Virus record (IMG/VR): IMGVR_UViG_3300028388_005459
Span: 1-62,349 of that record
Length of the DNA: 62,349 nt
Source of the DNA: a virus
Reading direction: 5' to 3' (one strand)
The notes under the pieces are model-generated. The model saw only the letters and a list, made by a program, of their open reading frames with translations, ran no database searches and had not been told where the DNA came from. Numbering within the stretch: the first letter of the stretch is position 1; every line of letters starts with the position of its first letter. The position numbers and the translations under genes are program-made. Shown here in pieces: positions 3,494-13,203 of the stretch.

Positions 3494-6400
3494 TTAACCC
3501 TCCAACGTTTGAATGAAGTTTTCAACCCCTTCTCGAAAAAGGGGCAGGTTCTTTGTCTCGTTTCTCAATACTGCTGAGGGATGAATCCCCCAACAAACCC
3601 AAGCGTTAAGCCCGCTCAAATATTCTGTGGTTCCACACTTTTTCATGATGCCCCCTTTCTCTCCAGTCAGCGCCTGAAGAGGCACGTTTCCCAGCGCGAG
3701 AATGATGGGAGTGTCGAGATTCTCGATTTCTTCATCAAGCCAGCGAAAACAAGGGCTGATATGCTCGGGTTTTGGTGTCTTTGTTCGCGAAGGATAACAT
3801 CGGCAGGTGTTAGCAACATGAAAGTGTCTGCGCGCCCATCCATGGGCTTCGATTTCCTCCCAGAGTTTCTTGCCTGCCGGCCCTTTAAACGCCTTGCCTA
3901 TCTTGTCTTCCATCCGGCCAGGAGCCTCTCCCAAGATCATCGCGTTATAAATCCCCAAGTCAGTCATTATTGGCTTTCGACACTCCTCCCTCAAATCGCA
4001 CCGTTCACAAGACACCATATTGGCTCTGTAACGCCTCCTTTTTAAGGCCGGGGGTTCGATAGGGGCGGAGTCGGGAAAAGCGAAATCGAACAAGTCCCGC
4101 GCTTTCTGCGGGAGATTTCCTTCAGGATCAAACGCGTTTACTTCCAGCAGAATCTCCCGGACCTTTTTGTTTTTAATCTCTGCGCTCTTGTCGTCCTTGA
4201 AAAACCCTGCCCGCTTCGCTTGCTTAGAGACTACGCATTGGCTTGCTGTTGACTCTCCAATGCCTTTGATTTCGATGAATGGACAGACAAGCGTGTTGTC
4301 TTCAGCAGACCAAGCGAAGGGAGATGAGCGCCCAACTTTGGGCGGGAGAATCGAGAGCCCAAGCCTGCCGGCCTCTTTTAAAAGCTCGTCCTTTTGCGAT
4401 TCTCTTCCATAGCTGAGCGACGCGCAAATAAACTCCGTAGGATAATGCAGTTTGAGCCAAGCCGTCCAATAGCCAATAAGCGCGTATTCGACAGAATGCG
4501 CGCGGTTAAAACTGTAATGGGCATGGTTTTTGAGATCGTCCCAAAAGCGCTTCCCTTGCCCCAGTGTGATAAGATCGACGTTCTCCACGCCTTCTAAGAA
4601 CTTTTCTTTGTATGGTTCAAGCTCTTTTGGGTCTCGTTTTTTCGCGAGAATCTTTCGGATTTTATCTGCTTCGCTCAACGTCATACCCGCGAGCGTATGG
4701 AGGAATGTCATAACTTGCTCTTGATATACAATTAGGCCCAGAGTATCGCACGTAATCCTGTTATATTCTTCAGTCTCTCCATCCCAGCTTGCGCCGTGTC
4801 GTCTCTCAACATATTGCTCTGTTATCCCGCTATCTGCCGGACCTGGGCGGACAAGCGCGATTGCCGCAGCCATATCTTCGAAGTTTCGAGGCTTCAATTC
4901 TTGGGCAAGTTTCGTCATTGCCCAAGTTCCCCATTGAAAGACGCCAACAGTGTTTCCCTCGCTGAGCATGTCGAAAACGCGCATGTCGTTCAAAGGGAAA
5001 TGATTTGGCGCGTCTTTTGTAGAGCTTAGGCAAGGCGTGAGTTCTTCATTTTCCTCTCCTATTTTTCCAAAAAAGAAGGCATCGCTTTCAGGATGCCAAA
5101 AGAATCCTTCCCCGTGATTTCCCTCGATCAGTTCGAGACAAGCCGAAATTACGGAAAGAGTATTCAATCCCAGAATGTCAAGTTTAATCAACCCCATAAA
5201 TTCGGAATCTTCCATGTCCCAATTTATGAGAATCTCGTTTTTACGGCGACAGAGAACGCCCTTGCCAGTGTCTTCAATTTTTTCTGGAGATACGATTACT
5301 GCCGCGGCATGTTGACTCGCGTGGCGGATTTTTCCTTCCAGAACTGCGGCATGGCGAACGACGCGAGGCCATTTTTTGCGAAAGCTCTTTCCTTCTCCAT
5401 TCGCGTGATCTTCAACCGTCGTTCCCTTGTTGTCGTCCGTATATTCAATGCCTTTCGCGAATTCATCAACCTCGTCCAAAGGAACGTCGAACACGCGCGC
5501 AACGTCCCGAATAACCGCCTTCCCTTTCATTCGTCCAAATGTCGAGACGCCAGCCACGCATCCCTCTCCATAAGTCGATTCGAGATATTTTTTGACCAAG
5601 TCGCGCTTTCTGTCCTCTACGTCAATGTCGATATCTGGCCAATCAACTCGATCCGCTGAAATAAATCGCTCGAAAACAAGCCCATAACGAAGAGGGTCCA
5701 CTTGTGTAATCCCGAGACAGTATGCAACAAGAGAGCCGCCGACAGAACCCCGCCCTGGGCCAACTCGAATATTGTTCCGCCCGCACCATTCAATAAGATC
5801 AAGGACGATTAAGAAATATCGAGCGAACCCCTTTTCCTCTATAATTTTTAGTTCATGCTTTATCTGTCGGACATAATCGTCCTGTCCCATTTCATTGGGC
5901 AAGACATTTTCGAGCCCCTCCCAAACCTTTGTCTCGAGCTCCATTTGATCGACAGTCTGGACAGACTCGCTTGCCCAGCCTTTTGAATCGTGTTGAATCT
6001 TTCTTTTTATTGGAGGGGAAGGAAGAGAAATTGTCTGCTGTTTCAGTTCAAATTCTTCACAAGATTTCGCCACTTTTATCGTATTTCGCAATGCGCCTAA
6101 ATATTCGCTCTTGCCCCAAAAGCCTTGATCTTCAAAGGCGTCAACCATTTCCTTGTAGGATCGCAAATGGAGGCCGTGACATTGAAAGCGAAATCGCTCA
6201 GGATCTTTCCATCTCGCCTTCGTTTGAATGGCCATCAAAACCTCTTGACTTTCCCAATCCTCTTCAAGAATATAATGGCAGTCATTCGTCGCGAGCAAGG
6301 GCGCAAATTGCTTGACCTCATCGACCATCTTATTCACGATTTCTTGTGTCTCGAATTTGTGGGGCATAATTTCGAGATATGTAGGAATATTCGCGTCTAT

Positions 6401-6862
6401 CATTTCAAGGAAAAGGTCTGAAACGTCTTCAGACGCCCGAAGGAAAGTAGACGCGCAAGCAGTCCCGAAAATTAAGCCAGAGCTATGCTTGATATGTTCG
6501 CGAAGCATGGCCGCATCGATTCTTGGCTTATAATAAAAGCCTTCGAGATTCGCCTTTGAAAGCATCCGGCAGAGACTTTTCCATCCCTCTTCATTTTGGA
6601 CCCAAATCGTTACGTGCCCGCGAAATTCTTTTTGCTTATCGAAGCGATTGGATATTATATAGCTCTCGCAGCCAAAGATGGGGATGATCTCGTGTTCTTT
6701 ACAGGCCCTTTGAAAGCGAATATGCCCATCAATATTTCCATGATCCGTGCAGCCAAGATACTTGAAGCCAAGTTCTTGTGCGCGCTGCGCATATTCTTTT
6801 GCCGTCCCAAGCCCGTCCAAGAGCGAGTATTCTGTATGAAGATGGAGATGGCAGAAATTCAT
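3494..6862 (-). CDS. dnaE: DNA polymerase III alpha fused to family 4 UDG
   Basis: This 1122-residue replicative polymerase carries a C-terminal uracil-DNA glycosylase domain. Residues 1-250 are a PHP domain (HLHLHTEYSLLDG; CTDHGNIDG). The C-family palm has GPGRGSVGGS, PDIDID (D410, D412) and a third Asp in IKLDILG (D562). A finger and helix-hairpin-helix region follows. From about residue 945 comes a UDG of the [4Fe-4S] type: C952-x2-C955, GEAPG at 978-982, C1022 and C1038 (16 apart, the spacing of the family's iron-sulfur ligands) and a final HPSAVLRN motif. The polymerase is shorter than the roughly 1160-residue bacterial DnaE before the UDG is counted. It starts at 6862, overlapping the clamp stop (ATGA) after AAAGG. 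Confidence 0.9.
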   Translation of the reverse strand: MNFCHLHLHTEYSLLDGLGTAKEYAQRAQELGFKYLGCTDHGNIDGHIRFQRACKEHEIIPIFGCESYIISNRFDKQKEFRGHVTIWVQNEEGWKSLCRMLSKANLEGFYYKPRIDAAMLREHIKHSSGLIFGTACASTFLRASEDVSDLFLEMIDANIPTYLEIMPHKFETQEIVNKMVDEVKQFAPLLATNDCHYILEEDWESQEVLMAIQTKARWKDPERFRFQCHGLHLRSYKEMVDAFEDQGFWGKSEYLGALRNTIKVAKSCEEFELKQQTISLPSPPIKRKIQHDSKGWASESVQTVDQMELETKVWEGLENVLPNEMGQDDYVRQIKHELKIIEEKGFARYFLIVLDLIEWCGRNNIRVGPGRGSVGGSLVAYCLGITQVDPLRYGLVFERFISADRVDWPDIDIDVEDRKRDLVKKYLESTYGEGCVAGVSTFGRMKGKAVIRDVARVFDVPLDEVDEFAKGIEYTDDNKGTTVEDHANGEGKSFRKKWPRVVRHAAVLEGKIRHASQHAAAVIVSPEKIEDTGKGVLCRRKNEILINWDMEDSEFMGLIKLDILGLNTLSVISACLELIEGNHGEGFFWHPESDAFFFGKIGEENEELTPCLSSTKDAPNHFPLNDMRVFDMLSEGNTVGVFQWGTWAMTKLAQELKPRNFEDMAAAIALVRPGPADSGITEQYVERRHGASWDGETEEYNRITCDTLGLIVYQEQVMTFLHTLAGMTLSEADKIRKILAKKRDPKELEPYKEKFLEGVENVDLITLGQGKRFWDDLKNHAHYSFNRAHSVEYALIGYWTAWLKLHYPTEFICASLSYGRESQKDELLKEAGRLGLSILPPKVGRSSPFAWSAEDNTLVCPFIEIKGIGESTASQCVVSKQAKRAGFFKDDKSAEIKNKKVREILLEVNAFDPEGNLPQKARDLFDFAFPDSAPIEPPALKRRRYRANMVSCERCDLREECRKPIMTDLGIYNAMILGEAPGRMEDKIGKAFKGPAGKKLWEEIEAHGWARRHFHVANTCRCYPSRTKTPKPEHISPCFRWLDEEIENLDTPIILALGNVPLQALTGEKGGIMKKCGTTEYLSGLNAWVCWGIHPSAVLRNETKNLPLFREGVENFIQTLEG

Positions 6863-7875
6863 TTTTTTACCTTTACAACCATAGCCACAACGTGATCCCA
6901 ATTCTCGCCCTTAAGTCGAACAACATCATCCGAAAGGATCATGATCGTTCCCTTTGCAATCGCCTCTGCGAAAAACGAAGGCGAGATCAAAAAGCTAAAG
7001 CTCTCGCCTTTATAGCGCAGAGTCAAGGGCTCCTCAAACCACCCCGCAGCATTTTTTGCAGAGATGACCATTTCATCTTCGACAATTGAGACGGTTACAA
7101 AGTCGTCACTTTCGAAATCCTGCTTGCAGAAAATGGAGGCTCGAGCGAGAACGTCCGACAAGCCTTTTGGCACCACGACCCTCTTGCCTTTTATCTTTAC
7201 AAGGTGACTGATATCGGGATAAGTTGCTTGCAAAATTCGAGACGAAAAGATCGTTTCTTTGTCAGTCAAAAAGTGGACCCAACCCGCGTTCTTTTTGTCT
7301 GCGCTCATGTTTTTGATCTTATATTTTGCAAGCTGTTTCGCTGCTGTTTCCGGAAGCAAGAATTCAAAGGGCATCTTTTCTCCGCGGACTCTTGTCAACC
7401 TTACTCCATCGCATGCTTCGACAATTCCTGATCGAGTAACGTGGACACAAGTTAGCTCTGGACGATTATAATCTTGCCCGCAGGAAAATGAAGTGAAAGC
7501 AAGAGAATTGGAAAAATCTGAGGGCATTTTTTTCCAATTGTCGATATCGCTAAAGTGGTCGACGGGGAGCTTGATTTCTGGATCAAGATTGATTCCCGCC
7601 TTTCCTTTTCCCGCTCGAATTCTTAGTTCATTTCCCTTTGATTCAAACGAGATTTCGTCAGATTTGATTTTCGACAGGAACTGGAACAGAGTATCCGCGC
7701 TTACAGCGCCGTTGACTTTGCAGCCAGGCAGTGGGTGAGAAATCGCGATACGATCATTAAAGGTAATGACTGTTTCGTCAACAAACGCCACGCATGTCGT
7801 CTGTTCCAAAATTTCCTTATTCGCCAAGCCAGGCTTGACGATAGAAAGAGCCTCAACAAGAGCGTCTTTTTTCAT
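6859..7875 (-). CDS. dnaN: DNA polymerase sliding clamp (beta-like)
   Basis: The 338-residue protein has the length and three-repeat pattern of a bacterial beta clamp. It begins MKKDALVEALSIVKPGLA and has segments such as FLSKIKSDEISFESKG and LQATYPDISHLV, which match the clamp fold's repeated strands. It should tether the adjacent polymerase. It overlaps the polymerase start by 4 nt, and its own ATG overlaps the preceding stop by 4 nt, so clamp and polymerase are probably co-translated. Identification rests on pattern plus context. Confidence 0.8.
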   Translation of the reverse strand: MKKDALVEALSIVKPGLANKEILEQTTCVAFVDETVITFNDRIAISHPLPGCKVNGAVSADTLFQFLSKIKSDEISFESKGNELRIRAGKGKAGINLDPEIKLPVDHFSDIDNWKKMPSDFSNSLAFTSFSCGQDYNRPELTCVHVTRSGIVEACDGVRLTRVRGEKMPFEFLLPETAAKQLAKYKIKNMSADKKNAGWVHFLTDKETIFSSRILQATYPDISHLVKIKGKRVVVPKGLSDVLARASIFCKQDFESDDFVTVSIVEDEMVISAKNAAGWFEEPLTLRYKGESFSFLISPSFFAEAIAKGTIMILSDDVVRLKGENWDHVVAMVVKVKK

Positions 7876-8144
7876 CTTTTCGCGTCCTTTCGCTGTTTGT
7901 CCTCAATCTCTCTTTGCGCTTCCCAAAAAATCTTTTTCGCTTCGCCCCGCCCATCACGCTCGTCCATTTGAAGAGCGGGGCGCTGCTTTACGTCGCGAAA
8001 AAAATCCAGCGCCTGGCAAGGAATCGTCTGCGCGATTTTCGCTGGCATATTCTGCAAAACAAACTCCTTGCCACGTGAATTGCGAACGCTGGTTCTCTCT
8101 TGCGAATATCCTCCTGAAGCGTCATTGGCGGCGAAAAGTTTCAT
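7872..8144 (-). CDS. hypothetical protein, 90 aa
   Basis: A start after GGAGGGAGAC gives a 90-residue polar protein that begins MKLFAANDASGGY and ends in a charged helical Lys/Arg/Glu tail. It overlaps the clamp start by 4 nt and the upstream small protein by 4 nt, so it belongs to the same translational chain. I do not recognise a domain. Confidence 0.6.
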   Translation of the reverse strand: MKLFAANDASGGYSQERTSVRNSRGKEFVLQNMPAKIAQTIPCQALDFFRDVKQRPALQMDERDGRGEAKKIFWEAQREIEDKQRKDAKR

Positions 8145-8332
8145 TTTGTCTCCCTCCGTCTTTTCTTGATTTGGACAGCTTTAACCAAATTCTCTGTCCA
8201 TGGGTCTTTATAAAAAAAAGAGCCTAAACGTCGATAAGAGCCCTCGCATTTTTTGAGGGTAAAATTGGCAGCGTCAAGTTCGCTCTTAACATCTTTCATT
8301 TGCGGGAAGTTCCCCGCCAAATAAATTTTCAT
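8141..8332 (-). CDS. small protein next to DpdA, 63 aa
   Basis: The protein begins MKIYLAGNFPQMKD, reminiscent of the first strand and loop of nucleoside 2-deoxyribosyltransferase-like (Rossmann) proteins, then has YRRLGSFFYKD and a basic end. At 63 residues it is too short for a full enzyme fold. It overlaps the dpdA stop by 4 nt (ATGA), so it is translationally coupled to the DNA transglycosylase and may be an accessory to base exchange. That role is inference. Confidence 0.55.
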   Translation of the reverse strand: MKIYLAGNFPQMKDVKSELDAANFTLKKCEGSYRRLGSFFYKDPWTENLVKAVQIKKRRRETK

Positions 8333-9336
8333 ATGCCAAGCCCGCGCGTAGCACCTTCAAATCTGGCATCTTTGTAGGCGGGGAGTATTTTTTCAAAATC
8401 GATATAATACCAAATATTGAGCTCGTCTCGTCGCTTGTAATTGTTCCCCGCCCCCATTTCTTCAATTGTTTCGATAAACCTTTCTCCGGGCCGATTTGGG
8501 TCTTTTATCTTGACAAGGCGTTCATTTGCCTGGCGCTTATAGTCTGCGCTTTCCCATCGAAAAGATGATTTTCCAAATTGATATTCCTTACCCTTTTCTG
8601 CGAGATACGCATCCACAATTTCTCGCGTCGATTCGGGCAAATTTCGATAATGATCAGGATCTTTCTTTTTGTTTGGAGCGAAGAACGATTCCGCCGACAA
8701 GGTAATTTTTAGGGGCTCTTGCGTATAATCCCAGCTTCCATCTTTTGTTCGGGGGACATAAATCTGTCCATGCCGCCCGACAGTCACCCAAGATGCTGAG
8801 TCAACAGAATACCAGGGGTATCGCATCATGAGGCGGAATGAAGTGACTGCGAATCCATGAAACTTGACGATAGGCCGCCCATTTCTGTCGGTGACCCAAG
8901 ACATGCAGTTGTCGAGCCATGATCTCTTTTCCGCTGTCGTCTTGTCATTCGCGGGAGAAAGCCCGATATACTCGAACAAGTCAAGCATTTTTTCAAGCCA
9001 CTTAAAATTTTCGCCTTGATGGAATACGGGAATTAACTGATTTTTAGGAATCCCTGCGTCGACCATGCGCATAAGATTCTTCCATCCCTGTTTTGCCGCA
9101 GCTTCTATTATTTGTGGAGTCTCGGGATTGTATGGATGGGGTGAAACGCCTCGACTCTGACTTGTCGATCCACGATTTGTCGCTGCGCTTGGGATTACGT
9201 CGAGATTGACGAAATAATCCACAACATCGAGTCGATCAAGGCAGTATGAAATGTAATCGTCAAGCAAGATTTCGGCGCCAATATTCCAAGCAGAAAATGC
9301 CCCCGAATCCATAATCAATTCGATCTCTCTTGCCAC
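8329..9336 (-). CDS. dpdA: DpdA-like 7-deazaguanine DNA transglycosylase
   Basis: The 335-residue protein resembles phage DpdA, a tRNA-guanine-transglycosylase relative that swaps guanine in DNA for a 7-deazaguanine base. Visible features are MDSGAFSAW near the N-terminus (candidate catalytic Asp), FVNLDVIP (second Asp strand), PVFHQGENFKWL and VKFHGFAVTS, consistent with the TIM-barrel TGT core. I chose the GTG at 9336 because it follows AAAGGAG. The longer frame to a TTG at 9387 would run through the promoter TGGCTATAAT. A full set of preQ0/preQ1 synthesis genes lies just upstream, which supports a role in DNA modification over tRNA modification. Confidence 0.8.
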   Translation of the reverse strand: MAREIELIMDSGAFSAWNIGAEILLDDYISYCLDRLDVVDYFVNLDVIPSAATNRGSTSQSRGVSPHPYNPETPQIIEAAAKQGWKNLMRMVDAGIPKNQLIPVFHQGENFKWLEKMLDLFEYIGLSPANDKTTAEKRSWLDNCMSWVTDRNGRPIVKFHGFAVTSFRLMMRYPWYSVDSASWVTVGRHGQIYVPRTKDGSWDYTQEPLKITLSAESFFAPNKKKDPDHYRNLPESTREIVDAYLAEKGKEYQFGKSSFRWESADYKRQANERLVKIKDPNRPGERFIETIEEMGAGNNYKRRDELNIWYYIDFEKILPAYKDARFEGATRGLGI

Positions 9337-9370
9337 GATTTCTCCTTTCTTTGGGCTTGACTTTTTCTGC

Positions 9371-9398
9371 ATTATAGCCAAGCCCAAAGAAAGCGCAA
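9371..9398 (-). promoter_or_regulatory. promoter for dpdA, TTGCGC-16-TATAAT
   Basis: The -10 TATAAT is at 9371-9376 with TGGC before it, and TTGCGC at 9393-9398 is 16 bp upstream. It lies between queF and dpdA, so dpdA has its own promoter within the cassette. Confidence 0.65.
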
Positions 9399-9402
9399 AA
9401 AA

Positions 9403-9846
9403 TTATTCTGCCGCAACCGGATTTTTTGTATGCTCAGCCACAACAGTGATGAAAGTCCCGCCGCGGGCGTTGAATTTTCCTTCAACCTTCATCCATCGAG
9501 GAAGAGAGACATAAACCAAATCGCCCAAGATTTTGTTAACGATTTTTTCCATGAAGGCACCGTGCTGTCGATACGCGAAAAAATAAAGTTTAAGACTTTT
9601 GGATTCGATGCAATGTCGAAAAGGAATATACGTGATCTTGATTTCCCCAAAATCGGGTTGCCCGGTTTTCGGGCAAAGTGAAGTGAATTCGGGAAACGCG
9701 ATTTCAACAGTATATTTCGCATTCGGGCCCTCATGATGGTGGGGGCTGGGAAACACTTCGAGCATGTCGGGAGATGGCAAGGTGAGTTGATATTCTGTCT
9801 TCTCCGCGCCAAGTTTCGTCAATCCAGAAACGTTATTTTCAGACAT
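9403..9846 (-). CDS. queF: QueF, NADPH-dependent preQ0 reductase
   Basis: This enzyme reduces the nitrile of 7-cyano-7-deazaguanine (preQ0) to the aminomethyl group of preQ1. The 147-residue length fits the unimodular type. TSLCPKTGQPDFG contains the nucleophilic Cys that forms the thioimide with substrate. IESKSLKLY is the QueF signature motif that binds NADPH, and its presence argues against the archaeal amidinotransferase QueF-L. The start at 9846 follows GGAGGAAAT. It lies downstream of folE in the 7-deazaguanine cassette, so preQ1 is the predicted end product. Confidence 0.9.
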   Translation of the reverse strand: MSENNVSGLTKLGAEKTEYQLTLPSPDMLEVFPSPHHHEGPNAKYTVEIAFPEFTSLCPKTGQPDFGEIKITYIPFRHCIESKSLKLYFFAYRQHGAFMEKIVNKILGDLVYVSLPRWMKVEGKFNARGGTFITVVAEHTKNPVAAE

Positions 9847-9874
9847 ATTTCCTCCTGAAGGTTTGCGCCCGTTC

Positions 9875-10441
9875 TTATTGCCGCCGACCAATCAGGCTGA
9901 GAAACTCGTTTCTTGCCGTCGGGTCGGTCATAAACTCGCCCTGTAGGGACGACGTTACCATGATTGAATTCTGTTTTGACACTCCCCGCATTCGCATGCA
10001 AAGGTGCTGAGCCTCGACAACGCATGCCGCCCCTCGCGGCCCGAGATAGTCCATAAGCGTATCTGTCACTTGAGTTGTAAGCCTCTCCTGAATCTGCAAG
10101 CGACGGGAAAAAGCGTCGACAATGCGCGCGAGCTTTGAAGTCCCAAGGATTCTGCCATTTGGGATATACGCGACATGCGCGACACCAAAAAATGGGAGCA
10201 TGTGGTGTTCACAAGTCGAAAATACTTCAATGTCGCGCACAAGGACGAGTTCGTCATACCCGGAACTGTCGAACGTCTTCATGAGGCCAGAGATTGAGAC
10301 GCGATACCCAGAAAAGATTTCATCGCACCACGCGCGACGCATGCGCTCTGGCGTCCCTTTTAGCCCTTCCCGATCAGGATCTTCGCCAATCGATTCGATC
10401 AACGAGCGGACCCCCGCGTCAAAACGTCTCTCGTCCATCAT
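9875..10441 (-). CDS. folE: GTP cyclohydrolase I
   Basis: It converts GTP to 7,8-dihydroneopterin triphosphate, the first step to preQ0. The 188-residue protein shows the family core [18 protein letters not shown] (zinc Cys and His), [18 protein letters not shown] and the third zinc ligand region [10 protein letters not shown], with ENRERLT-like sequence replaced by QERLTTQV. It is complete at family length. Its ATG overlaps the queC stop by 4 nt. In this context it feeds queD, queE and queC rather than folate synthesis. Confidence 0.93.
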
Positions 10442-11133
10442 AATCGCATTGTCCTTTCCATTAAGGGGTCAGCATACCCCGCCTCCAAAAACCCGTTCAT
10501 GCGCAGCTTACAAGCGGGACATTCGAGGCATGGAGGCACGACGCCATTATAGCAAGTGTGCGAATGAGCAAGCGCTTCCCATGCCGGGTATCCTTGCGCG
10601 TCGAGTTCTTTGGCAAGCTGGACAGTCTCTGCCTTTGTCATATACATAAGGGGGGTGTGAATCGTGATTTCTTTGGCGAGAGCGAGAGACAAGGCGACCT
10701 GAGTGGCTTTGATGGTGTTGTCTCTGCAATCTGGGTATCCGGAAAAATCGGTCTGACATACGCCAGTGACGATGTTTGAGATATCGTGCTTATAAGCGTA
10801 TGCTGCGGCGAAGGTTAAAAGAGCGACATTGCGGCCAGGAAGAAACGAGGCGGGCAGGCTACCGACGCGATGCGCCGAAGAAATGTCACCGTCCCGTTGC
10901 ACCATTAACGAGTCTCCAATTTGGCTGAAAATCGTTCCCGCGTCGAGTTCCACGTGATACGCTTTCGCAAGCGCGGCGATAGTTTCTGCCGCCTCCATCT
11001 CCACGACATGCCGTTGGCCGTAATGCAGATTCAAGGAAACGATAGGCCCCTCAAATTCGCGTTTCGCCCAGAACAAACATGTCGTGGAGTCCTGTCCTCC
11101 AGATAGGAGGACGAGAGCTCCACTTCGCTTCAT
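10438..11133 (-). CDS. queC: QueC, preQ0 synthase
   Basis: The ATP-dependent enzyme converts 7-carboxy-7-deazaguanine plus ammonia to preQ0. The 231-residue protein has the PP-loop [12 protein letters not shown] at residues about 8-19 and the C-terminal zinc cluster [18 protein letters not shown]. There is no N-terminal glutamine amidotransferase-like (Gat) extension of the type linked to 2'-deoxyarchaeosine in other phages. The start at 11133 follows AAGGAG. Longer in-frame starts upstream lack a ribosome site. Confidence 0.93.
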
Positions 11134-11146
11134 GATCTGCTCCTTT

Positions 11147-11962
11147 TTAGAAGGTGATTTTGCCGTCGGAGGTTTTATGCGCGACTTTGCCAAATTTCGA
11201 GTATTTCGGGTTGAGAGAATCAGAAACGACGGTGCCAACGGTGGAGGGCGTTTCTTCCGGAAACTTCTCAATCACTTTCGCGACGAGATCCTTCCGGGTA
11301 TGCTCTCCCTCTTCGATCAGCGCCTTGATATAGTCGTTTCGATCAGACTTTCGGGCGCGACGAGTGCCGATATTTTCGCCCTTGCTCTTGCTCTTGCCTT
11401 TGCCTTTGCCGGCGCCCTTGCTCTTGCTCTTGCCCCTGCCGGCGCTGTCGTCTTCGCCCGAGGAGGCGTTCGTCGTCGATTCGACTTCGACTTTGACGCC
11501 CAAGACCTTGCGCAGGCTCGAAGGGACCTTCTTGCCCATTTGCGCAGCGACTTCCTTCAAAGCTGTTTGCGCGTCCTCGCTCAGGGTCTCCAAATCGTCT
11601 TCCGCCATGAATTTCTGGATGAAAGTGTCGAGATGGGACTTGATCTGCGCTTCCGCTTGTTTTTGATCCTCGAGTTTCCGGCTCTCGGGCTCGACGGTCA
11701 GGTTGGGTTCGATTTTGAAGGCCTTTGAAAGCTCGTCGGCGACCTTGTTCAAGCGCTTAACATTGTCCATAACGGCCTTCAGAGACGGCTTGCTTGCCTT
11801 CGCGCTGTTGTTGCTGCCATTCTCGGCCGGAGCGCTGTTTTTCGTCTTGTTTTTGGCGGTGTTGGTGGTTTGGCTCTTGCCCTTGCTCTGACTCTTGGTG
11901 CTGTTGTTGGTGGTTTGGCTCTTGCTCTTGCCTTTGTTCGTGTTGGTGGTTTGCTTCGCCAT
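11147..11962 (-). CDS. Lys/Ser-rich histone-like protein with wHTH-like end
   Basis: The 271-residue protein begins with about 45 residues of low-complexity Lys/Thr/Ser/Asn repeats. A helical acidic middle follows (about 60-150), then a second GKSKSKGAGKGKGKSKSK tract near 180-200. The last 65 residues look like a winged-helix module (DYIKALIEEGEHTRKDLVAK...TVGTVVSDSL...DGKITF). Such composition fits a non-specific DNA-binding or compaction protein, like eukaryotic H1-like tails. It has its own promoter (12008-12036) and interrupts the queE-queC gene order. The function is inferred only. Confidence 0.55.
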   Translation of the reverse strand: MAKQTTNTNKGKSKSQTTNNSTKSQSKGKSQTTNTAKNKTKNSAPAENGSNNSAKASKPSLKAVMDNVKRLNKVADELSKAFKIEPNLTVEPESRKLEDQKQAEAQIKSHLDTFIQKFMAEDDLETLSEDAQTALKEVAAQMGKKVPSSLRKVLGVKVEVESTTNASSGEDDSAGRGKSKSKGAGKGKGKSKSKGENIGTRRARKSDRNDYIKALIEEGEHTRKDLVAKVIEKFPEETPSTVGTVVSDSLNPKYSKFGKVAHKTSDGKITF

Positions 11963-12007
11963 TTTGTTTTCCTCCTTGTGTTGTGTGCGTTTTCGATCTT
12001 GGAAAAC

Positions 12008-12036
12008 ATTATAGCCAGATTTGGAGAATTTTGCAA
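12008..12036 (-). promoter_or_regulatory. promoter TTGCAA-17-TATAAT
   Basis: TTGCAA at 12031-12036 and TATAAT at 12008-12013 are 17 bp apart, with the recurring TGGC just before the -10. It is the best match to sigma70 among the TGGCTATAAY family and precedes the histone-like gene and, beyond it, queC, folE and queF. Confidence 0.75.
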
Positions 12037-12053
12037 GGGCTTTTTGGAAAAAA

Positions 12054-12800
12054 TTATGGAAAATTTATTCTCTTGTGAATTTGGACATTTAGAACCACGT
12101 CCGCAAGCCTCGAGCTTGCCCGCATCCAAGAAAACAGCTTTTGAGGCCCCAAATGGATGGGTGAAAACGCGAATCGTGGAAAAGAGCGCTGCCCAAGCTC
12201 GTTTTTGATGAGATCAAGCGCCTCGACAGCGCTATAAAAAGATTCCTGATCCCAGACCGGAATCTTGACCCAGTCCCCCTTCTCTCCATCAAGAATGTCC
12301 CATGTCGATTGAGCCCAGGGCAATGGAGCGTCTGTTTTATAGTCCACAATCAAGGACAAATTTTCCGCGCGCTCTTTGAGAACCTCCTTCAGCGTGGCGT
12401 TAAGCTCAACAGTGCCATTTGTTTCGATTGAAATATGGAACGGCGAGGACCTTTCGTCCTTGATTTGCTCTTGACTGTCGAGAGTGCGGTAAGTGACGCG
12501 AAGCGGGAGCTTTTCCAAAAGATCAAAAAGGCCCTCTTGTTGCATGAAGGGCTCTCCCCCCGTAATTGTCGCCTTTACGGTTCGCAGTTCAGCGACGACA
12601 TTATAAACGGAGGTGACGTAGCGCGACAGAGAATCCCGATTTTTGGCGTAGGGAGAATCGCAGTAAAAGCAATCGAGATTGCACCCGAAGAACCGGATAA
12701 ATGTCGATTGAGTTCCTTGCCCTTGGGGATTGACTTCTCCGTCAATCGAAACGAAAGGGGGTTCAGCGAGCACTAATGCGCCACAAGTTTCTGCTTCCAT
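12054..12800 (-). CDS. queE: QueE, 7-carboxy-7-deazaguanine synthase
   Basis: This radical SAM enzyme rearranges 6-carboxytetrahydropterin to 7-carboxy-7-deazaguanine. The 248-residue protein has FVSIDGEVNPQGQGTQSTF followed by FFGCNLDCFYCDS, the CxxxCxxC cluster motif of the family. TITGGEPFMQQEGL is the SAM-binding GGEP motif. The start at 12800 follows AAGGAG. It is separated from queD by only 1 nt, as expected for a pathway operon. Confidence 0.93.
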   Translation of the reverse strand: MEAETCGALVLAEPPFVSIDGEVNPQGQGTQSTFIRFFGCNLDCFYCDSPYAKNRDSLSRYVTSVYNVVAELRTVKATITGGEPFMQQEGLFDLLEKLPLRVTYRTLDSQEQIKDERSSPFHISIETNGTVELNATLKEVLKERAENLSLIVDYKTDAPLPWAQSTWDILDGEKGDWVKIPVWDQESFYSAVEALDLIKNELGQRSFPRFAFSPIHLGPQKLFSWMRASSRLADVVLNVQIHKRINFP

Positions 12801-12801
12801 A

Positions 12802-13203
12802 TTAGTTCTCCTTGATCCACTCTGCATAGCTTGTTGGTGTTTCGTAGAGTCGAACACCAAGAAGCCTTGCACTTGTAAAAGACAACACGGGAATCAGTTC
12901 GTCCCGAATCCACAGCACCATCCGCTCAGCAGTCGGCGAGACAACGTCGAAGGGCGGAATCGAGTTTATCAACTGATGATCGAGTTTGGTTTTGATCGCG
13001 TCTTCCATGATCTGTTTTAGATGCCCAAAATCCACAAGCATTCCAGTTGACGGATCAATTCGACCGCGCATGGCGATTTGAAGCCGGTAAGTATGTCCAT
13101 GAAGGTTGCTGCACTTGCCCTCGTGTTTTGGCAGATAATGCGCAGCGTCGAAAGTGATTTCCTTTACGACTACCACAATATCTCTATCAATCGGCGGACT
13201 CAT
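12802..13203 (-). CDS. queD: QueD, 6-carboxytetrahydropterin synthase
   Basis: It converts dihydroneopterin triphosphate to 6-carboxy-5,6,7,8-tetrahydropterin. The 133-residue protein has the family zinc site FDAAHYL...CSNLHGHTY (three His and a catalytic Cys), then DFGHLK and LDHQLIN, then a C-terminal ETPTSYAEW. It starts after AAGGAGATTATAG and overlaps the helicase gene end by 17 nt. Confidence 0.93.
   Translation of the reverse strand: MSPPIDRDIVVVVKEITFDAAHYLPKHEGKCSNLHGHTYRLQIAMRGRIDPSTGMLVDFGHLKQIMEDAIKTKLDHQLINSIPPFDVVSPTAERMVLWIRDELIPVLSFTSARLLGVRLYETPTSYAEWIKEN

Follow-up and report, generated by a model that had tools for sequence, protein, structure and literature searches.

In the 62,349-bp viral record IMGVR_UViG_3300028388_005459 from IMG/VR, analysed over its full length and called the window here, a minus-strand operon running from 13,203 to 8,141 encodes QueD, QueE, a Lys-rich protein, QueC, FolE, QueF, the transglycosylase DpdA and a 63-residue open reading frame (ORF), and its DpdA appears to be split and circularly permuted. 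The record is siphovirus-like and contains terminase, portal, head and tail tape-measure genes. Taking the scheme as a whole, we consider it reasonably likely that FolE, QueD, QueE, QueC and then QueF would convert GTP to preQ1 (7-aminomethyl-7-deazaguanine), which DpdA would swap for guanines in the phage DNA, and that the resulting dPreQ1 would shield the phage genome from restriction. DpdA would act as two pieces, with the main protein supplying the last six barrel strands and both catalytic Asp motifs, and the 63-residue protein, translated right after it, supplying the first two strands. The order and chemistry of the pathway are taken from known families and from phage Dp-1, and we infer the preQ1 product, its insertion into DNA, the protection from restriction and the assembly of core and module. 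The pathway is ordinary; the novelty lies in the architecture of the DNA-modifying enzyme DpdA.

The window DpdA (8329..9336, minus strand) matched a PHROG family annotated as queuine tRNA-ribosyltransferase at 2.8e-43, and a search of its sequence against the PDB gave no match. Its start is probably a GTG at 9336, preceded by AGGAG and located only ~8 codons ahead of the first catalytic Asp motif, DSGAFSAW; the second motif reads SVDSASW. The DSGA and SxDSxxW motifs of tRNA-guanine transglycosylases (TGT) and DpdA were thus both present, and DSGA, together with the S and D of SxD, was invariant in 37 DpdA homologues. Canonical phage DpdAs carry, ahead of DSGAFSAW, a ~50-residue segment with the consensus MK(I/L)Y(F/L)AG...(N/R)RL.S(F/Y). 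The PHROG match of the window protein began at profile position 50, whereas that of the canonical DpdA of L021 (L-numbers denote the fetched related loci) began at position 8, indicating that the N-terminal segment is missing from the window DpdA. The protein therefore departs from the single chain in which strands 1 and 2 lead a full eight-strand barrel, and comparison with TGT on the model of a homologue suggests that it corresponds to the last six strands of a transglycosylase barrel. A first-pass annotation of this DNA had taken DpdA as an ordinary intact enzyme, but its first barrel segment is absent from the protein and encoded next door.

The neighbouring 63-residue ORF (8332-8141, minus strand; MKIYLAGNFPQMKDVKSELDAANFTLKKCEGSYRRLGSFFYKD), which starts MKIYLAGNFPQMK and ends YRRLGSFFYKD, overlaps the dpdA stop codon by ATGA and is a candidate detached N-terminal DpdA module of the form strand1-helix1-strand2. 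In phmmer searches it matched the C-terminal DpdA extension of L033 (7e-5) and a separate downstream ORF of L044 (2e-5), and it scored 8.8 bits with a profile of canonical DpdA N-terminal segments, against a control maximum of 6.2. These similarities show, at the level of sequence comparison, a relationship between the 63-residue ORF and the DpdA front segment absent from the window DpdA. Modules of this kind had no Pfam or PHROGs family match, and tblastn with two of them, the window's and one of another class, found no homologue in 50,697 records of cultured phages. No report of a split or permuted DpdA was found in the literature searched, itself of partial coverage.

To place the window DpdA among its relatives, we used a split-type alignment to retrieve 80 viral and 17 genome loci. 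Together with the QueF loci they make up 144 non-redundant DpdA loci, and in 41 of these DpdA begins at the DSGA motif. A survey profile trained only on canonical N-terminal segments reached 8 bits or more at the 3′ end in 24 of the 41 short dpdA genes and in none of 246 same-locus control regions (Mann-Whitney P = 3e-15). Assigned by eye, locus by locus, the segment was fused to the DpdA C-terminus in L022, L027, L029, L031, L033, L094, L124, L144, L152, L157, L166, L169 and L170, making at least ten permuted single chains. It occupied an overlapping or nearby downstream ORF in L003, L016, L019, L032, L044, L056, L074, L076, L100, L105, L107, L140, L141, L143, L150, L153, L175, L177, L182 and the window, and lay upstream of dpdA in L106 and L115; among the short-DpdA loci, no module was recognised by eye in L110 and L190, nor in the contig-edge cases L108 and L151. 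At least three modules lay within 1.6 kb of dpdA in 31 of the 144 loci, with a maximum of seven (L096), and only 11 module hits fell elsewhere in these loci. As judged by eye, the modules fall into recurring classes (e.g. ASTAPGNE, ATWLxExxQG, AGTPGIxxRE and AGNFPQMK), so they look conserved, unlike debris. The occurrence of the segment in relatives as a C-terminal fusion, as a separate downstream ORF or as several paralogues points to a transglycosylase that is split and circularly permuted and whose modules are detachable. Unlike most loci, L162 has four module-like hits around 8200-8560, 3.4-3.8 kb from dpdA, and in L166 (4938-6875) DpdA is seemingly broken by an intein-like insertion, with the front module still at its C-terminus.

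AlphaFold was run on two permuted fused DpdAs, those of L169 and L033, and the core was modelled confidently in both, with a mean predicted local distance difference test score (pLDDT) of 79 and 78, respectively. Residues 1-294 of the L169 model aligned to TGT 96-365 and to residues 89-410 of the solved DpdA of a bacterial Dpd system (PDB 7ui4) with a Z of about 13, the barrels agreeing in their last six strands. As the alignment begins at TGT residue 96, the front ~90 residues are absent from the L169 core, and we read this absent front in the model as barrel strands 1 and 2, with the Asp of the L169 DSGA motif (residue 7) predicted to fall on TGT Asp102. In 7ui4 and TGT, strands 1 and 2 precede the catalytic motif within one chain; by contrast, in the window type they would follow the motif or form a separate protein.

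The substrate for this enzyme would come from QueF (9403..9846, minus strand), a unimodular preQ0 reductase by its Pfam match (1.2e-28), residues 17-151 of which aligned to Bacillus subtilis QueF structures, including PDB 4f8b, at 5e-34. Known QueFs are defined by Cys55, Asp62, Glu97 and the NADPH motif E(S/L)K(S/A)hK (PMC5372742). The window protein has the catalytic Cys and Asp in SLCPKTGQPD, the substrate Glu in FMEK and the NADPH motif in IESKSLK, features common to the B. subtilis enzyme and those of a true QueF, so the Cys and ESKSLK motifs reported by the first-pass annotation are in place. That annotation left unmentioned two departures: Met stands in place of the His that precedes Glu97 in B. 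subtilis, and the back-door residue Cys99 is missing. QueF does not need Cys99 for activity, and part of the family lacks it (PMC5372742). The Met was not confined to the window, since the 87 QueF ORFs of the fetched loci had His in 54, Met in 25, Tyr in five and Gln in one at this position, with two intein-bearing copies left unscored. In the QueF tree, all 25 Met forms fell in one group of 26, which includes one Tyr form, with support of 89/88. The window QueF found no match among viral contigs as a single-sequence query, whereas an alignment query succeeded.

The Met is not specific to phages: in 297 genomes from a single phylum, many of the QueFs that matched most closely carry it. Ten such cellular genomes had one QueF match each, of the Met type; QueA was present in all ten and DpdA had no match in them. 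QueA acts on preQ1-tRNA, and as the Met-type protein is the sole QueF matched in these QueA-bearing genomes, it would be expected to make preQ1. An initial idea, that the His-to-Met change signals altered chemistry peculiar to phages, was abandoned, because the same variant occurs in cellular genomes with QueA. We therefore read the window QueF, from its sequence and that of its relatives, as probably still making preQ1 despite the Met. As separate observations, the QueFs of L064 and L065 (6939-8384), otherwise Met-type, carry an intein directly before the catalytic Cys (SSL / CVSGDTLMD...VVLHN / CPKTGQPD), and DpdA and QueF are fused as a single ORF in L079 (6174-7739) and L090 (4941-6524), linking preQ1 formation to DNA insertion.

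FolE, QueD, QueE, QueC, QueF and DpdA are encoded together in the window, as in Streptococcus phage Dp-1, whose queFCDE-folE-dpdA cluster unites these six functions in a single block. Dp-1 DNA contained dPreQ1 and no archaeosine (dG+) (PMC6884629), and by analogy we hold with good confidence that dPreQ1 would be the main product in the DNA of the window phage. Phage 7-deazaguanine modification, which the first-pass annotation had called established, is documented by the same case, and its remark that most known cases lack a true QueF agrees with our counts, in which 25 phage records matched QueF and 178 matched DpdA. The Dp-1 cluster differs from that of the window in gene order, in an added QueT transporter, in a QueF with His rather than Met, and in a DpdA with its front segment in place. 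The Nanhaivirus phages vB_DshS-R5C and Pan1 share with the window the order QueD ... QueC-FolE-QueF ... DpdA, but have a long N-terminal DpdA region before DSGA and a QueF with His, neither of which is found in the window. Among loci fetched from IMG/VR and phage records, 66 had QueF with DpdA and 38 had all six genes, and in about twenty of these the gene order ran from an AAA protein to DnaN/DnaE as in the window. Given these loci and the Dp-1 precedent, the six-gene pathway of the window belongs to a known kind, and its gene set enlarges the small circle of known dPreQ1 makers by an uncultured phage lineage.

Several observations weigh against the scheme as proposed. The His-to-Met change in QueF could alter its reaction. 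Taken by itself, the window module matches weakly (E 0.31 over all ORFs), and its assignment depends on position and relatives. A profile comparison of the modules with canonical N-terminal segments gave a probability of 98% and an E of 1.2e-13 but is partly circular, some members having been chosen by motif. The C-terminal module had a pLDDT of about 30-50 in both L169 and L033, where few alignment rows cover it, and its placement in the barrel is accordingly something we infer. The missing first barrel segment could mean that DpdA is a truncated, inactive remnant and that the cluster merely boosts queuosine in host tRNA, which we find highly improbable: short DpdAs are widespread (41/144 loci), their DSGA, HGF and SxDS motifs are invariant across phages, the missing segment is encoded beside the short DpdA in nearly all loci, and queA, queG and queH were not seen among the scanned proteins, although a full search for them was not made. 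The clustering of several paralogues around one dpdA in 31/144 loci, up to seven in number, and the retention of the N-terminal segment by some multi-module DpdAs would fit another possibility, in which the 63-residue protein and others like it work on their own, as regulators, as inhibitors of host enzymes or as adaptors for DNA sites, and are kin to the DpdA front without completing the barrel. We regard such a role as unlikely, because DpdAs without the segment have the module fused C-terminally or in an overlapping ORF, as expected of a needed part. Homology and gene order make it likely that the 63-residue protein completes DpdA.

The product is open to a similar argument, in that a Met-type QueF might act as an amidotransferase or halt at the thioimide, leaving the DNA with dG+ or the amide dADG rather than dPreQ1. 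The active-site His is replaced in the window QueF, the thioimide path is common to QueF and QueF-L (PMC5485725), and HVTV-1 DNA contains traces of dG+ and dADG alongside dPreQ1 (PMC6884629). In addition, Hutinet et al. grouped phages with QueF or QueF-L plus DpdA together and noted that sequence distinguishes the two poorly (PMC6884629). QueF-like archaeosine synthases are marked by loss of the NADPH-binding motif. ESKSLK is intact in the window protein, ten genomes encoding QueA, an enzyme that depends on preQ1, have no QueF match other than the Met variant, and no dG+ occurs in Dp-1, making the amidotransferase or thioimide route quite improbable. A Gat-QueC archaeosine synthase is likewise not encoded, as the Pfam scan of the window QueC showed no glutamine amidotransferase (Gat) domain and only QueC with a weak Asn_synthase overlap, in line with the first-pass annotation, and no preQ1-decorating enzyme (formyl or methyl) was found among the proteins scanned near the cluster. 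PreQ1 in DNA, to which that annotation had pointed, rather than archaeosine or preQ0 alone, remains best supported by the QueF motifs, the lack of Gat and the Dp-1 precedent; its "therefore" was too strong, given the poor separation of QueF from QueF-L and the replaced His.

The split DpdA would be a natural TIM-barrel enzyme cut and reordered between strands 2 and 3, an arrangement that would recur across numerous phages as fused, separate or multi-copy versions. If the modules do assemble with the core, they would offer an experimental system for the tolerance of a barrel to permutation and possibly for retargeting DNA base exchange. Because multi-copy loci suggest it, we speculate that a single DpdA core can combine with different strand1-strand2 modules encoded around it, each of which would close the barrel and set a DNA target or base preference of its own, the window being the one-module form; such retargeting by exchangeable modules seems to us rather unlikely.

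The remaining operon genes lie on the minus strand where the first-pass annotation had placed folE, queD, queE, queC, queF and dpdA. Identities were assigned by Pfam and PHROGs profile scans of the window proteins, with strong scores, far beyond chance, for all pathway genes, and likely starts were chosen by Shine-Dalgarno sequences, which back QueE at 12800, QueC at 11133 and QueF at 9846, in addition to the DpdA start. QueD, a 6-carboxytetrahydropterin synthase of 133 residues (12802..13203), matched Pfam PTPS at 7e-38 and a QueD-like PHROG at 5e-24 and has the Shine-Dalgarno sequence GGAG. QueE, a radical SAM 7-carboxy-7-deazaguanine synthase (12054..12800, likely ATG 12800), matched Pfam Radical_SAM at 7e-10 and a QueE-like PHROG at 1e-22 and contains the cysteine motif CNLDCFYC. 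The preQ0 synthase QueC (10438..11133, likely ATG 11133; Pfam QueC 6e-63) has the zinc cysteines and the canonical motifs set out by Libby et al. (PMC13329287), namely SGGxDS, YxQxHxxE, VPxRN and YPDC, the third of them conservatively altered to LPGRN. FolE, a GTP cyclohydrolase I of 188 residues (9875..10441), matched Pfam GTP_cyclohydroI at 1.7e-71.

The cluster extends beyond the six genes listed in the first-pass annotation, which passed over the 63-residue ORF after DpdA and a Lys/Ser-rich protein of 271 residues between QueE and QueC (11147..11962, minus strand). The latter had no Pfam or PHROG match, and its C-terminal 81 residues form a domain conserved in 14 related loci, in most of them within the same cluster. 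The operon has a GC content of 49%, compared with 50% for the remaining window, and the first 25 kb of the window had no close DNA relatives among phage records. Beyond the 63-residue ORF lie a 90-residue ORF without a family match (7872-8144), a DNA clamp-like gene, and DNA polymerase III alpha (DnaE) with a uracil-DNA glycosylase domain fused at its C-terminus (3494-6901). The gene beside DnaE has no Pfam match and is read as a DnaN-like clamp from its position and its homologues in related loci; Dp-1 likewise has an annotated DnaN close to its cluster. In many related loci DnaN is followed by a uracil-DNA glycosylase-like ORF, in some cases within a long ORF without the DnaE part, and in L106 an ORF resembling the 90-residue ORF of the window (ND-GG...MPAK) stands directly after dpdA.

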